Below the pieces are notes generated by a model. It saw nothing but the letters and a program-made list of their open reading frames with translations, was not told where the DNA came from and did not search any database. Both the position numbers and the translations under genes were made by a program. From Candidatus Brocadia sp. WS118 (lineage in GTDB: Bacteria > Planctomycetota > Brocadiia > Brocadiales > Brocadiaceae): DNA of 34,794 bases. This document shows, piece by piece, positions 205-10,994 of the stretch. Location: the NCBI GenBank assembly GCA_007618135.1, contig PHFX01000020.1:1-34794 (forward strand), in the 5' to 3' direction. Positions within the stretch are counted from its first letter, which is position 1. Every line of letters starts with the position of its first letter.

Positions 205-235
205 TTCCCTGGTCAGGGAAAATATTTCCTTGACA
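205..235. promoter_or_regulatory. Overlapping inverted repeats upstream of the modE-like promoter
   Basis: TTCCCTG-GT-CAGGGAA (205-220) is a perfect 7-2-7 palindrome. GTCAGGGAAA and TTTCCTTGAC (213-235) form a second inverted pair with one mismatch that runs into the -35 hexamer. A related half, TCCCTGGTCAAGGAA, opens the window at 2-15. This could be a second regulator site or a hairpin; no function can be assigned. Confidence 0.3.
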
Positions 236-259
236 ACATTATGTCTTTTAAGACATAAT
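230..259 (+). promoter_or_regulatory. Sigma-70-like promoter with a palindromic operator, modE-like gene
   Basis: TTGACA (230-235), an 18-bp spacer and CATAAT (254-259) form a near-consensus promoter. A perfect palindrome, ATTATGTCTT-TT-AAGACATAAT (238-259), fills the spacer and covers the -10 box, so a bound protein would block polymerase. The half-site TTATGTC recurs in the palindrome at 1448-1469 before the porin, which suggests autoregulation by the adjacent ModE-type protein. The -10 lies only 11 nt from the ATG at 271, so the transcript would be leaderless or nearly so. Confidence 0.6.
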
Positions 260-270
260 GCTCGGCAAGC

Positions 271-615
271 ATGAAGGTAAAATTCAAGATATGGTTTGAA
301 GAAAATGGGGGCGTGGCATTCGCTGAGGGGCGCAGGATACTCCTGGAAGCTGTAGATCGTCTGGGATCCCTGAATGCAGCAGCAAAAGAACTGGGTATGT
401 CATATCGGGCTGCATGGGGAAAGATCAAGGCCACGGAAAAGGCTTTAGGGATAAAATTACTGGAGGTTACTACCGGGGGAAAGGGTGGAGGCGGGGCAAC
501 TCTGACGTCAGAGGCAGAGGAACTGATTCTGAAATACCAAAAGTATACAGGCCGGATGACCTTGTTGATCGAAAAAGAATTCAAGCGTATTTTTGAAAAC
601 GAGAAATCGCAATGA
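271..615 (+). CDS. ModE-type winged-helix regulator, DNA-binding domain only
   Basis: This 114-residue protein matches the N-terminal helix-turn-helix domain of the molybdate regulator ModE. The core is the LGSLNAAAKELGMSYRAAW region (about residues 31-50), followed by a wing with the glycine-rich TGGKGGGGATLT turn (about 67-79). Full-length ModE also carries two C-terminal Mop domains of about 135 residues that sense molybdate; these are absent here. A separate gene for a di-Mop protein begins 308 bp downstream. The ATG start gives the family's usual N-terminus but has no clear ribosome-binding site, in line with a leaderless transcript from the promoter 11 nt upstream. I infer that it represses itself and the porin-modA unit. 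The family is clear; the regulon is inferred. Confidence 0.85.
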   Translation: MKVKFKIWFEENGGVAFAEGRRILLEAVDRLGSLNAAAKELGMSYRAAWGKIKATEKALGIKLLEVTTGGKGGGGATLTSEAEELILKYQKYTGRMTLLIEKEFKRIFENEKSQ

Positions 616-633
616 CGCCTTCATACCCGATGT

Positions 634-827
634 ATAGGAATTTCACAGTTGTTGCAGAGCGAAGAATTTCTTCGTTCTTCATTAAAAAGCAGTACGACGA
701 ATATCGAATATCGAACAAGGAATGTTGAATGATGAAGTAGGGACACGGAGCACCGTGTCCCTACTAAATTCCTTGTTCTGCGGTTCGATCTTCTCTTTAA
801 ATTAAGTTGCCGAAGGTCTAATTAAAT
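634..827 (+). repeat. Mosaic palindromic repeat, copy A1
   Basis: It begins ATAGGAATTTCA and ends GCCGAAGGTCTAATTAA. The interior contains GTTGCAGAGCGAAGA, a GAACAAGGAAT...ATTCCTTGTTC inverted pair and a hairpin with arms GTAGGGACACGG/CCGTGTCCCTAC. Close copies of the interior lie at 9836-10019, at 7054-7277 (second half) and, inverted, at 4234-4543. Confidence 0.8.
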
Positions 828-829
828 GT

Positions 830-912
830 ATAGGAATTTCAATTACCCCCCCCCATAATCCCCCCGTTTACGGGGGGAAACAGGGGGGAAAGTAGCCGAA
901 GGCCTAATTAAT
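830..912 (+). repeat. Mosaic palindromic repeat, copy A2
   Basis: This unit directly abuts copy A1 and has the same ends (ATAGGAATTTCA ... GCCGAAGGCCTAATTAA). Its cassette differs: a hairpin of CCCCCCG and CGGGGGG around TTTA, then a further G run. The same cassette occurs at 7078-7110. Two tandem units with identical ends but different middles show that the ends define the repeat. Confidence 0.75.
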
Positions 913-923
913 GGTGGTCGTAT

Positions 924-1331
924 ATGGCAAACAGACTTTGCGGAACGATTATCAATATAACTCACGGGCAAATCCATGCCCACGTTCAAATCCTCTGGAA
1001 GGAGATACCACTGAGTGTGATTATAACCCGCGCTTCGTGTGAGGATATGCATCTCCTGGTGGGCGATACTATTTCGGTGCTGGTCAAGGGCACAGATATT
1101 ATGATTGCAAAGGCATTTACAGGGATGTTGAGCGCCAGGAACAGGGCCAGGGGAATGGTAAGGCAGATTATTCAGGGAGACGTATTGTCGAAGATCTTTG
1201 TAGAATCTCAGGGTGATATGCTCCATGCCATTATTACCAATGCCTCTCTGAAGGAAATGAATATTAAAGAAGGTGATGAGGTTGCCGCCATTGTGAAATC
1301 AACAGAACTGATATTGTCAAAGGAAATTTAA
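924..1331 (+). CDS. Free-standing di-Mop (tandem molbindin) protein
   Basis: These 135 residues hold two molybdate/tungstate-binding Mop (TOBE-type) repeats. Repeat 1 spans about residues 4-65 (CGTIINITHGQI ... VIITRAS ... VLVKGTDIMI). Repeat 2 spans about 68-134 and begins with the family motif LSARNRARGMV, ending AIVKSTELIL. The length and arrangement equal the C-terminal sensory half of classical ModE. With the HTH-only ModE-type gene just upstream it looks like the detached ligand domain of a split regulator; storage or buffering of molybdate is the alternative. The ATG at 924 follows a GGTGG element, and the upstream region is repeat copy A2. No hydrophobic segment is present, so it should be cytoplasmic. 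Confidence 0.8.
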   Translation: MANRLCGTIINITHGQIHAHVQILWKEIPLSVIITRASCEDMHLLVGDTISVLVKGTDIMIAKAFTGMLSARNRARGMVRQIIQGDVLSKIFVESQGDMLHAIITNASLKEMNIKEGDEVAAIVKSTELILSKEI

Positions 1332-1447
1332 CATAAAGAGAGTGAAAGGAGGTGTACGGTAGAGGATAAGTTGTTTTTGGATATATCGTTTAAAATACCT
1401 TGTGGGGCAGGCTGCGTCAAAGCTGTTGCCCATTTTTATGTACATGC

Positions 1448-1469
1448 GTTATGTCATATATGATATAAC
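1448..1469. promoter_or_regulatory. Putative ModE-type operator upstream of the porin-modA unit
   Basis: GTTATGTCAT-AT-ATGATATAAC is a 10-2-10 palindrome with one mismatch. It matches the perfect palindrome at 238-259 in length, spacing and the TTATGTC half-site. It also resembles the known ModE box (CGNTATATA ... TATATAACG). It ends 21 nt before the porin start, where it would overlap a promoter or leader. Confidence 0.55.
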
Positions 1470-1489
1470 AATGACGAAAAGGAGGATAC

Positions 1490-2965
1490 ATGAGAAATAG
1501 GTGGATTCAATATGGTATATCGGTGGGTATGGTATTTTTCATGGTATATGCTGACGGTAGAACACAGGATATCATTGCCCAGGACGTTGTTCAGAACAGA
1601 GAGGCTTTTGAAGATGAAGTAGGTGATTTGAGAATGCAGTTAAAACAAATGGAAGAGGCGTTTCTTGTCCAGCAGCAGATGATGAAACAGATGGAGACAT
1701 TGGCAATAAGTCAGCAGGAGCAAATCAAAGAATTGAAAACCCGTGTCGAGTCTATGAGTGAAAAACCTGTGACCGTTGCAAAAGAAGAGATCAAAGAAGA
1801 GGTAAAGCAAGAGGTGGGGAACTACCTTGCATCGGATGAGGCGCGGGAAAAATTGGGATTAGGCGTACTTGGCAAGAATGAACCGGTTAACGGTTACTAT
1901 ACGCCCGATAAGGGAAAGTCCTCGATTGGTTTTCAAACACGGGATGGAAACTATTCTTTAAACATTGGTTTCAGATCCCAGATGCGCTTTACCTACAAGG
2001 ACAGAGATGAAGATTTTGATGAAGATGATGTAACTGATATCGATTTGCGCAGGGCGAGGCTTTGTTTTAACGGCAATATCTATAGCAAGGATCTGTTTTA
2101 TAACGTGGAACTTGATGCAGACAGCTTCGAGGCGAATCTGAGGGATTATTATATCTGGTGGACGCCATCGGCAGCCGAGGGAGCGTTCAGTGTAAAGGGC
2201 GGATATTTTAAGGTGCCGGCCAACCGTCAGTGGAATTCATCAGGTTTCTATCTCCTGCTTCAGGACAGGTCTATTGCCAGCGATAACTTTAAACAGGATC
2301 GTGATTACGGTATAGATCTCTATGGACAACCGTTCGATGGCCATATGGAATACCACGCAGCCGTTTTTCGCGGCGCTGGCCAGAATACCTCAAAAGCGTT
2401 TGGCAAGGATGAAAACAACGACAATGAACTCATGTATGTGCTTGCCGCACGGTATTATCCCTTTGGATGGTGCAATGCCAACAATATAGCAATGGGCTGG
2501 GATGAGACTGACTTGAACTACGAAGAGAATTTTAAGGCCTCAATTGGCGCATCGTTCGTTTATAATGCAAAGGAGAAAGACAAAAAGCTGGAAGACACCA
2601 ATTCCGCAATCGGCAACGTTGACCTGTCTATGAGATACAGAGGGTTTAGCTGGGATAGTGAATATTATATACGGGAGAATGATCCTGAAGACGATGGTGA
2701 TTCAGTGACCTCAGACGGTTTCTACACCCAGGCTGGGTATTTTGTGCTGCCCAAAAAACTGGAACTTGCTGCCCGTTACTCCATGCTTGACCCGAATGAG
2801 GACGAGCGGGATGATGTTCAGACGGAGTACACGGTTGGCGTCAATTATTACCTGCGTGGGCATCGCCAGCAGATACAGACTGACTTTGGTCACTTCGTAA
2901 CTGAGACCACGGGGCAGGATAAAGACGAAAACAGAATCAGACTACAATATCAAATGATCTTTTAG
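1490..2965 (+). CDS. Outer-membrane porin, OprO/OprP (phosphate-selective) type, with N-terminal coiled coil
   Basis: The 491-residue protein starts with a basic, hydrophobic signal segment (about residues 1-22). A glutamine/glutamate-rich coiled coil follows at about 35-100. From about 125 onward it is a beta-barrel with alternating aromatic strands and many acidic turns. It ends in Phe (YQMIF), the usual C-terminal aromatic of outer-membrane barrels. The region with DIDLRRARL, YNVELDAD and the KGGYFKVPANRQ segment is typical of the OprP/OprO superfamily. The AAGGAGG at 1480-1486 fixes the ATG. modA starts only 11 bp downstream, so the two are co-transcribed; a role in letting oxyanions such as molybdate across the outer membrane is inferred. 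Substrate specificity cannot be read from the sequence. Confidence 0.85.
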   Translation: MRNRWIQYGISVGMVFFMVYADGRTQDIIAQDVVQNREAFEDEVGDLRMQLKQMEEAFLVQQQMMKQMETLAISQQEQIKELKTRVESMSEKPVTVAKEEIKEEVKQEVGNYLASDEAREKLGLGVLGKNEPVNGYYTPDKGKSSIGFQTRDGNYSLNIGFRSQMRFTYKDRDEDFDEDDVTDIDLRRARLCFNGNIYSKDLFYNVELDADSFEANLRDYYIWWTPSAAEGAFSVKGGYFKVPANRQWNSSGFYLLLQDRSIASDNFKQDRDYGIDLYGQPFDGHMEYHAAVFRGAGQNTSKAFGKDENNDNELMYVLAARYYPFGWCNANNIAMGWDETDLNYEENFKASIGASFVYNAKEKDKKLEDTNSAIGNVDLSMRYRGFSWDSEYYIRENDPEDDGDSVTSDGFYTQAGYFVLPKKLELAARYSMLDPNEDERDDVQTEYTVGVNYYLRGHRQQIQTDFGHFVTETTGQDKDENRIRLQYQMIF

Positions 2966-2976
2966 AGGAGGACGCG

Positions 2977-3783
2977 ATGTTTTTGAAAAAACATAACAGA
3001 CGGGTTACGAATTTTATCCCGATAATATGTGCAGCCTGGTTACTATCTTTATTCATAGCTTTTCACCATGAGGTTTACGCGGATGAAAAAATCCTTATTG
3101 CGGCAGCCGCCAACCTGAATCCTGCCATGAATGATATCTGCAAAGGATTCGAGAAGAGATATCCTACCATCGATGCGGAGGTGTCGTACGGTTCGTCTGG
3201 CAATTTCTTTGCCCAGATTAAACAGGGGGCGCCTTTCGATATATTTTTCTCAGCCGATACAACCTATCCCGCGCGTCTCGAAGAGGAAGGTTTGGCGGTA
3301 AAGGGGGGAAGTACGACTTACGCCTTTGGAAGCATTGTGCTCTGGATACCAAAGAAATCCGCATTCAATCCCCGAAAGGGATTGCATCTCGTTTTAGACC
3401 CAAAGGTAAAAAAGCTGGCCATTGCAAACCAAAGGCTCGCACCGTATGGCATGGCAGCAGAGGAGGCGCTTCGACACTACGGATTGTGGGACAAGGTTCA
3501 GGATAAACTGGTCTTTGGGGAAAACATTTCGCAAACGGCGCAATTTGTCCAGTCAGGCGCAGCCGACGTGGGCATTATCGCCCTGTCCCAGGCAATTTCA
3601 CCAAAAATGGAAAATGATGGAGACTATTGGGTCATCCCTGCCGAAGCGTATAACAAACTTGGACAAGCCTATGTTGTCCTGCAAAGAGGCAAGGATAATC
3701 CGGGTGTCAAAAAATTCCTGGAATACGTACACGGGAGAAAGGGAGAAAAAGTATTTTCCAAATACGGTTATTTACTCCCATAA
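2977..3783 (+). CDS. modA: Molybdate ABC transporter, periplasmic binding protein ModA
   Basis: This 268-residue protein has a Sec signal peptide (hydrophobic core about 13-29, likely cleavage after VYA at 35). The mature domain starts with KILIAAAANL. Family ligand regions are visible: SYGSSGNFFAQIKQGAPFD, with the serines that coordinate the oxyanion, then APYGMAAEEAL and AADVGIIALSQA. The length is normal for ModA. It follows the porin by 11 bp with AGAGGAGG as ribosome-binding site. The permease and ATPase genes are not adjacent: a molbindin gene and a repeat insertion separate them, which is unusual for mod operons. A tungstate-binding relative remains possible, but the Mop and ModE neighbours favour molybdate. 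Confidence 0.92.
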   Translation: MFLKKHNRRVTNFIPIICAAWLLSLFIAFHHEVYADEKILIAAAANLNPAMNDICKGFEKRYPTIDAEVSYGSSGNFFAQIKQGAPFDIFFSADTTYPARLEEEGLAVKGGSTTYAFGSIVLWIPKKSAFNPRKGLHLVLDPKVKKLAIANQRLAPYGMAAEEALRHYGLWDKVQDKLVFGENISQTAQFVQSGAADVGIIALSQAISPKMENDGDYWVIPAEAYNKLGQAYVVLQRGKDNPGVKKFLEYVHGRKGEKVFSKYGYLLP

Positions 3784-4233: not shown

Positions 4234-4543
4234 TTGAATTAGGCCTTCGGCGACTTTTACCCTGTGTTCCTTCGCTGGTTCAGTCGTCCTCGATTGAATC
4301 GAAACGTTTGATATAATTCCATCTCATAGCACGAGTTTTAGAGTATCGTTCAAATATATGGTTCAATCTGCAATGAGTGAACCAGCCGTAAAGATCGAAC
4401 CGCAGAACAAGGAATTTAGTAGGGACACGGTGCTCCGTGTCCCTACTTCATCATTCAACATTCCTTGTTCGGTATTCGTCGCACTGTTTTTCAATGGAGA
4501 ACGAAGAAGCTCTTCGCTCTGCAACAACTTTGAAATTCCTGAA
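4234..4543 (-). repeat. Mosaic palindromic repeat, copy B (inverted)
   Basis: Read on the minus strand it begins AGGAATTTCAAAG and ends GCCGAAGGCCTAATTCAA. Its first half equals copies A1 and D, including the GTAGGGACACGG hairpin. Its second half (4234-4385) instead matches 29160-29313, with the GGTTCAATC hairpins. It is therefore a recombinant of two cassette sets. It sits between the modA-molbindin unit and modB, splitting the mod genes. No gene is supported here. Confidence 0.8.
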
Positions 4544-4648: not shown

Positions 4649-5320
4649 ATGGATTTCACGGCTCCTTTCCTTTTAACCCTAAAGCTTTCTACCATTACAA
4701 CACTTTTATTATTTGTCCTGGGTATCCCTTTCGCCTACTGGCTTGCCTTTTCAAGGTTTCGCGGGAAATTTTTCGTTGAGTCTGTGGTAGCCTTGCCCCT
4801 TGTTCTTCCTCCGACTGTCCTGGGTTTCTATCTTCTTATGGCTCTTGGGGGAAACAGTTTTGTTGGGCGTTGGTACGAAAGTATGTTTCATAAGACGCTC
4901 GCATTCTCCTTTCAAGGGCTTGTTGTGGGTTCGTTCATTTATAACCTGCCTTTTGCAATACGGCCATTTCAATTGGCTTTTATGGGGGTGGACAAAAAAT
5001 TGCTTGAGGCATCATGGAGCCTGGGCAGATCAAAATTATACACCTTTCTTTTCGTTATTTTTCCTCTCTCCCGGCAAGGTGTTATAACCGGTTGCATACT
5101 CTCCTTTGCGCACTGCGTGGGTGAATTTGGAGTTGTCCTTATGATTGGCGGAAATATTCCAGGAATCACAAAGGTTGCCTCAGTAGCTATCTATGACGAG
5201 GTACAGGTGTTGAATTACGGAACTGCGAATATCTATGCAGCCATTTTACTGGCATTTTCATTTGTAATACTCACCGTGGTCTATTTTGTAAATAGACGTT
5301 TTCTTCTGCGCATGTTCTAG
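4649..5320 (+). CDS. modB: Molybdate ABC transporter permease ModB
   Basis: This 223-residue integral membrane protein has about five hydrophobic helices (roughly 10-30, 45-68, 83-105, 135-160 and 190-215). The cytoplasmic EAA loop that docks to the ATPase is clear: EASWSLGRSKL from Glu120, then FPLSRQGVITG, with the ModB-type GEFGVVLMIGGNIPG after it. The length is standard. The ATG at 4649 has only a weak upstream element (CAGGA). modC follows 21 bp later. It forms the channel for molybdate delivered by ModA. Confidence 0.93.
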   Translation: MDFTAPFLLTLKLSTITTLLLFVLGIPFAYWLAFSRFRGKFFVESVVALPLVLPPTVLGFYLLMALGGNSFVGRWYESMFHKTLAFSFQGLVVGSFIYNLPFAIRPFQLAFMGVDKKLLEASWSLGRSKLYTFLFVIFPLSRQGVITGCILSFAHCVGEFGVVLMIGGNIPGITKVASVAIYDEVQVLNYGTANIYAAILLAFSFVILTVVYFVNRRFLLRMF

Positions 5321-7053: not shown

Positions 7054-7277
7054 CAGGAATTTCAATTACCTCCAATAATCCCCCCGTTTACGGGGGGAAA
7101 GAGGGGGGGTTGTAGAGCGACGAGCATTGTCGCTTTACATTGAAAAGCAGTACGCCGAATATCGAACAAGGAATGCTGAATGATGAAGTAGGGACACGGA
7201 GCACCGTGTCCCTACAAAATTCCTTGTTCTGCGGTTCGATGTTCTCTTTAAATAAGTTGTTGAAGGTCTAATTCAAT
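7054..7277 (+). repeat. Mosaic palindromic repeat, copy C
   Basis: It begins ACAGGAATTTCAATTACC, like copy A2, and carries the CCCCCCG/CGGGGGG hairpin. After a junction near 7115-7140 it continues as copy A1 (AGCAGTACGCCGAATATCG, the GTAGGGACACGG hairpin) and ends GAAGGTCTAATTCAA. It is a second clear hybrid of cassettes found separately elsewhere. Confidence 0.8.

Positions 7278-9835: not shown

Positions 9836-10994
<1,159 letters not shown>

Follow-up and report, generated by a model that had tools for sequence, protein, structure and literature searches.

Candidate operators of a helix-turn-helix-only ModE at the molybdate-uptake locus of a Candidatus Brocadia genome

Molybdopterin enzymes such as nitrite oxidoreductase are essential to anaerobic ammonium-oxidizing (anammox) bacteria. 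We analyzed a 34,794-nucleotide (nt) stretch of DNA from Candidatus Brocadia sp. WS118 (contig PHFX01000020.1, C236 in our numbering), hereafter the window, which is part of a 299-contig assembly totaling 5,037,263 bases. The nearest named relatives of this genome are Candidatus Brocadia species, and the modE gene of Ca. Brocadia pituitae is 91% identical to that of the window. The genes modE, a di-Mop gene, a porin gene, modA, a single-Mop gene, modB, and modC follow one another in the window, and one palindrome lies in the promoter of modE and another upstream of the porin gene. Comparative sequence evidence indicates that both palindromes are very probably operators of the encoded ModE, which consists of a helix-turn-helix (HTH) domain only and would exert negative control over its own promoter and over porin-modA.

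The original prediction described two matching 22-nt palindromes with the same 10-2-10 geometry and a TTATGTC half-site. Geometry, half-site, and positions were confirmed: site 1 (positions 238 to 259) reads ATTATGTCTT-TT-AAGACATAAT, with arms matching at 10/10 positions, and site 2 (1448 to 1469) reads GTTATGTCAT-AT-ATGATATAAC, with arms matching at 9/10. The conserved unit, however, is 24 bp rather than 22 (Table 1), with the consensus CGTTATGTCATTNATGACATAACG and the inner bases GTCA-N4-TGAC (TATGTCA-N4-TGACATA). When the window was simulated 200 times with a first-order Markov model, 10-2-10 palindromes matching at 9/10 positions or better occurred at 1.41 per copy; the real window holds 10, of which six fall within two repeated elements that have no connection with the operators. 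Two such palindromes with a common 7-mer half-site were found in 0 of the 200 copies.

Across the whole genome, the pattern TTATGTC-N6-GAYATAA matched both window sites and nothing else when no mismatch was allowed. With two mismatches it was uninformative as a regulon scan (54 + 52 matches versus 44 + 52 for the reversed control); because it matched as often as the control, it was dropped in favor of profile R1, for which 36 related sites were used, including the two in the window. Only the window sites reached an E value of 0.5 or less with R1 (next match, E = 0.625), so that a search for hits at molybdenum genes, as originally proposed, yielded strong matches confined to the mod locus. The sites were also recovered by a weight matrix trained on the modE promoters of 24 relatives' loci, with the window excluded: they ranked first and second in the window, the third-best position scored 6.7 bits, and maxima on four random 5-Mb Markov sequences were 16.2 to 22.0 bits. 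Although trained on modE promoters alone, this matrix also recovered the porin sites of relatives.

The 24-mer occurs in three promoter layouts. At modE, the first palindrome had been predicted to overlap the regulator's own −10 element, which it does; in addition, operator 1 fills the 18-bp spacer between TTGACA and CATAAT. Families f1 and f4 of the anammox bacteria have the same layout, with the 24-mer starting 1 nt after TTGACA and extending across spacer and −10. Operator 2, located as predicted just upstream of the porin-modA unit, begins 43 nt before the porin start, and the porin layout has no TTGACA at the corresponding place. In family f3, the site precedes modA and its left arm supplies the −10 (TTGACA-N16/17-TATTAT). 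Because the 24-mer is kept whole in all three layouts, a DNA-binding protein explains it better than a promoter does. Eleven bases separate the modE −10 from its ATG, and a Shine-Dalgarno-like match was found at 1 of 25 modE starts versus 8 of 8 porin starts; for these two reasons, the modE mRNA is probably near-leaderless.

To what extent orthologous promoters keep the palindrome was examined across the order and the phylum. A 24-mer with at least 15/20 consensus matches was present within 150 nt upstream of modE at 25 of 29 loci, the window included (below threshold, L068, L072, L073, and L074; L070 is cut at a contig end and L071 was unscored). Of 62 genomes of the order, 41 have a modE match, and 39 of these carry a site within the modE locus, as the prediction had anticipated; this figure measures conservation rather than providing an independent test, because the majority of the genomes share loci with the training set. 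The site scores at least 22 bits and starts 31 to 49 nt before the modE ATG in 32 of the 41, and it lies elsewhere in the locus in seven more (G012 at −476, G031 at −307, G044 at −67, and four others). The modE of G044 is 38% identical and has an Escherichia coli-like box of 19.2 bits, and in G003, G007, G008, and G009 the site follows the modE start by about 360 nt, before modA. The other two modE genomes are G045, in which modE is broken by stops and no site was found, and G055, in which no upstream sequence is present. R1 matches at E ≤ 0.03 were found in 36 of 41 genomes with modE versus 3 of 21 without (Fisher P = 1.7e-8). In a draw of 119 genomes from the phylum, 5 of 5 with a close modE (at least 73% identity) and 1 of 108 others had the site. 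Among 18 porin loci, taken from the modE loci of the order (G019 contributes two, and a match of 30% identity in G055 is excluded), 15 bear a site no more than about 60 nt upstream of the porin, and in 11 of these the distance is exactly 43 nt.

Further sites in relatives were set aside as chance-like or unexplained: four inside coding sequence (L172, L174, L178, and L183), two next to a transposase or within repeat-like sequence (L173 and L182), and one on a 4.7-kb contig of G135 without mod genes. In genome G036, a porin and a TtrA-like molybdopterin oxidoreductase lie close to two operators (L170, 5083 and 5245); the genome contains an 81%-identical di-Mop fragment but gave no modE match, and modE may be missing from this assembly.

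The regulator is an HTH-only ModE, in agreement with the original prediction. The 114-residue protein has a ModE-type winged HTH, matches TIGR00637 (E = 1.5e-23), and finds the Protein Data Bank (PDB) entries 1b9m, 1o7l, and 2ijl by sequence. Its predicted fold (mean predicted local distance difference test [pLDDT] score, 91.5) returned 1b9m as the top Foldseek match; 2ijl, which is a putative Agrobacterium ModE with one domain, was matched at a template modeling (TM) score of 0.77 to 0.82. A C-terminal di-Mop region is lacking from the same chain, with no TOBE or Mop match by Pfam and TIGR families. Pfam likewise gave no TOBE domain in the window ModC.

We propose that a ModE dimer would bind the 24-bp dyad and repress by blocking RNA polymerase. 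At site 1 it would cover the −35/−10 spacer and the −10 element, resulting in negative autoregulation; binding at site 2 would mask the region where the porin-modA unit starts. Plentiful molybdate would lead ModE to repress molybdate uptake, and scarce molybdate would allow porin, ModA, and the rest to be produced. In the window lineage, molybdate would most likely be sensed by the adjoining free di-Mop protein, a natural candidate because a strong di-Mop match is present in 35 of 41 genomes with modE versus 2 of 21 without. In families f1 and f4, the di-Mop gene adjoins modE almost always. The best PDB match of this 135-residue protein is 1h9j, a 145-residue "molybdenum-binding protein" (ModG).

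Alternatively, ModE could bind these sites without any molybdate signal, as an HTH-only repressor acting through its abundance, with the di-Mop protein merely a ModG-like molybdate buffer; we consider this a serious possibility, though not the one we favor. It would fit the family f3 genomes (G003, G007, G008, and G009), which keep modE and operator and have no full-length di-Mop protein, and 22 of 23 distant genomes examined, which have no near-full-length one (the single match, in G097, is 26% identical and lies inside a 783-residue frame). A split ModE was rejected as a general rule on these grounds. The adjacency in f1 and f4 and the 35/41 versus 2/21 distribution argue for a sensing role instead, although linkage alone could explain the association.

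Sites of the same kind occur at one-domain modE genes in other phyla. Among 50 distant loci (L075 to L125 without L094), 17 contain sites that score 20 bits or more (20 sites in total), compared to none in 20 shuffled sets. A second profile, R2, was run on the genomes of 38 of these loci and matched at E ≤ 0.02 in 23 of the 38. Thirty-five distant sites of at least 18 bits were listed from the modE loci plus 18 stretches taken from R2 genome-wide matches. A flanking gene is linked to molybdenum or tungsten by family match at 18 of the 35, a count colored by the enrichment of molybdenum genes already present around modE. These flanks are TupA-like or PBP_like_2 (L080, L091, and L110), FmdE/MoCF (L081), molybdopterin oxidoreductase or formate-dehydrogenase-like (L082, L083, L085, L088, L101, L107, and L227), MobA (L084), MoCF (L088), molybdenum hydroxylase (L090), MoeA (L117 and L122), and aldehyde ferredoxin oxidoreductase (L229 and L234). 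The remaining 17 sites adjoin an aldehyde dehydrogenase (L083, L095, and L099), a 2-hydroxyglutaryl-CoA dehydratase subunit (L101), or a gene without family (L096, twice); have no gene start within 400 nt (L088, L119, L228, and L232); lie inside an open reading frame (ORF; L111 and L119); have an unscanned flanking gene (L077, twice, and L090); represent an additional, weaker match in the L101 promoter, which is already in the count; or precede modE itself (L110). Away from modE (L227, L228, L229, L232, and L234), three of five sites are linked to molybdenum or tungsten. The stretch SYRAAWGKIKATE is nearly invariant in 32 sequences of these one-domain ModEs, where E. coli has SYKSAWDAINEM, and fits a common inner operator sequence.

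Several observations weigh against ModE as the binder of these palindromes. The TIGR00637 match of the window protein (82.7 bits) is below the curated cutoff of 98.5; three porin loci (G024, G025, and G041) lack a site; none of six phylum genomes with distant modE-like matches (36 to 48% identity; one of the six also read directly) has one; and no site of 20 bits was found at 33 of the 50 distant loci, nor an R2 match at E ≤ 0.02 in 15 of the 38 distant genomes. Arm covariation, sought as proof of dyad recognition, was null: complementary arm pairs numbered 396 versus 388.6 in shuffled sets over all sites, a value reached by 222 of 2,000 shuffles, and 253 versus 259.1 for the anammox sites alone. 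Finally, the −10 hexamer alone accounts in part for the conservation of the right arm at modE.

It is improbable, in our judgment, that the 24-mer is the operator of another molybdenum or tungsten regulator sharing the mod neighborhood with ModE, such as a TaoR-like protein, which combines an excisionase-type HTH with a PBP-like domain. The aldehyde ferredoxin oxidoreductase, tupA-like, and formate-dehydrogenase-like targets in distant genomes are of the kind associated with TaoR, and strong PBP_like (PF12727) frames of 280 to 390 residues exist in 9 of 23 distant genomes (G064, G069, G072, G080, G082, G083, G090, G094, and G098). However, PF12727 has no match in the window's genome and matches 7 of the 62 genomes of the order, so most operator-bearing relatives lack it; operators also exist in distant genomes without a high-scoring frame of this size (e.g., G067, G070, G071, G075, and G085); and the site sits on modE's own promoter. 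A TaoR-like binder was accordingly rejected for anammox bacteria and stays a rival for some distant genomes. TaoR is mentioned in PMC11980592. Least probable of all, and very much so, is that the palindromes are promoter sequence (TTGACA plus CATAAT or TATAAT) with AT-rich chance symmetry, a reading that would suit the coincidence of right arm and −10, the frequency of comparable palindromes in shuffled windows, and the lack of covariation, but not the location of the left arm in the −35/−10 spacer, its conservation to about the same degree as that of the right arm, the same 24-mer in differing promoters at porin and modA, or the location of both strong genome matches at the mod locus.

Table 1. 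Positions of the operators, modE promoter elements, and mod locus genes in the window
Feature	Position	Strand	Evidence
−35 element TTGACA of modE promoter	230..235	+	Sequence; TTGACA or near match 1 nt before 24-mer in orthologues
Operator 1, CATTATGTCTTTTAAGACATAATG	237..260	.	Held-out matrix 32.2 bits, window rank 1; profile R1 whole-genome E 0.003
−10 element CATAAT, in operator 1 right arm	254..259	+	Sequence; CATAAT/TATAAT at equal place in relatives
modE, 114-aa HTH-only ModE without Mop domain	271..615	+	TIGR00637 ModE_repress 82.7 bits (cutoff 98.5)
Free di-Mop (ModG-like) molybdate-binding protein, 135 aa	924..1331	+	TIGR00638 Mop 94.1 bits, two stretches
Operator 2, CGTTATGTCATATATGATATAACA	1447..1470	.	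Held-out matrix 27.4 bits, window rank 2; R1 E 2.3e-4
Porin, outer-membrane, OprP/OprO-like	1490..2965	+	NCBIfam ExtI porin 48.7 bits, under cutoff 150
modA, molybdate-binding protein	2977..3783	+	TIGR01256 216 bits, over cutoff 62.5
Single-Mop protein, 69 aa	3929..4138	+	TIGR00638 89.4 bits, over cutoff 55
modB, permease	4649..5320	+	TIGR02141 237.3 bits, over cutoff 182.6
modC, ATPase, 292 aa	5342..6220	+	TIGR02142 233.9 bits, under cutoff 285.05

The porin family profile matched Porin P (OprP; E = 1.1e-11) and also Porin O (OprO) in the PDB, a match that derives from the initial part of the barrel (profile positions 141 to 285 of 486). An N-terminal helical stretch is predicted. A fold search was set aside in favor of this profile match because the mean pLDDT of the structure model, 57.6, was too low. 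Porin paralogues distant from modE also bear the operator (L165, L167, L168, L169, and L170). At L167 (5079 to 7901), the gene after the operator and the porin is PstS-like (phosphate-binding), with its coding sequence divided between two overlapping frames, and in Ca. Brocadia pituitae (L046, 10825 to 12400) the operator precedes an apparent second, decayed porin gene start, with the intact porin starting about 1.4 kb downstream. Strong intergenic copies of the operator adjoin a small cytochrome c gene at L164 (4282), L171 (1998), and L169 (882). On the opposite side lies an ACR3-type arsenite transporter gene at L164 or a porin at L169; at L171, a family relative comes after a short ORF. We draw no tie to molybdenum for the copies by cytochrome c and ACR3 genes (L164 and L171).

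The window also contains an element of about 86 bp in four copies (701 to 790, 4393 to 4478, 7156 to 7240, and 9898 to 9983) that are 97 to 99% identical, one of them inverted. It includes the palindrome GGGACACGG..CCGTGTCCC and resembles a miniature inverted-repeat transposable element (MITE) or a repetitive extragenic palindromic (REP) sequence. Two copies flank the stretch from the di-Mop to the single-Mop gene. Close to these repeats, the palindrome ATCCCCCCGTTTACGGGGGGAA occurs in two identical copies (858 to 879 and 7078 to 7099).

A broader reading, which we advance tentatively and think unlikely to hold in full, is that the anammox ModE is split, so that a repressor reduced to its HTH and a separate di-Mop protein together form a molybdate switch on TATGTCA-N4-TGACATA operators. 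This operator class would be common to one-domain ModEs of Planctomycetota, deltaproteobacterial, Bacillota, and Actinomycetota genomes, and the main target, the OprP-like porin, whose paralogues in relatives bear the operator too, would be a regulated oxyanion (molybdate) channel. Our search, which left most subscription journals outside and for that reason proves little, found no literature on an anammox ModE operator, its inner sequence, or molybdenum regulation in anammox bacteria. A defined 24-bp operator makes the function of a ModE without a sensor domain testable, and it suggests that the gene of an outer-membrane porin is regulated by molybdenum.

The operator is of a known kind, the ModE box, with a different inner sequence. 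When the matrix was applied to the 3 kb surrounding modA of E. coli K-12, the best match was CGTTATATTGTCGCCTACATAACG (7.8 bits; next, −3.0). This box lies 43 nt before modA, the same distance as that between operator 2 and the porin. A resemblance of the second palindrome to the enterobacterial box had been noted originally, and it is borne out by the outer arms and by the 24-bp spacing: both are 24-bp dyads with CGTTAT...ATAACG-type outer arms, and direct comparison with CGNTAT...ATANCG revealed deviations at the ends (operator 1, CA for CG and TG for CG; operator 2, CA for CG at the right end). The position, at molybdate transport or molybdenum enzyme genes, is also that of a ModE box. The resemblance does not extend to the inner bases, which are TATGTCA-N4-TGACATA in anammox bacteria, in contrast to TATATTG...CTACATA in E. 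coli, and the TATATA-N6-TATATA core is missing from the consensus. In PMC545781, the published ModE consensus is ATCGNTATATA-N6-TATATANCGAT, with a 24-bp core spacing equal to that of the window operators.

The E. coli ModE is a single 262-residue protein with two Mop domains, whereas HTH and di-Mop are separate proteins in the window (45% identical over 74 residues to the E. coli HTH and 27% over 85 residues to its C-terminal part, respectively). A one-domain ModE is common to the window, Desulfovibrio, and D. psychrophila; a 2004 study describes molybdenum sensing by the Desulfovibrio protein as unclear, reports no E. coli-type site there, and proposes CGGTCACG-N14-CGTGACCG (PMC545781). As a general operator, GTCAC-N14..22-GTGAC was rejected, having been found at just one of the 50 distant loci, where it lies 4.5 kb away from modE. 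The Desulfovibrio GTCAC/GTGAC-type motif was reportedly later assigned to TunR. The window di-Mop protein resembles the di-molbindin ModG of Azotobacter vinelandii in being a free protein with two Mop domains but differs in being encoded within a modE-porin-modABC cluster, adjoining an HTH-only ModE. Similarly, the porin family resembles the phosphate-type porins OprP and OprO and Geobacter ExtI by profile match; unlike these, the window porin is linked to mod genes and a ModE-type operator.
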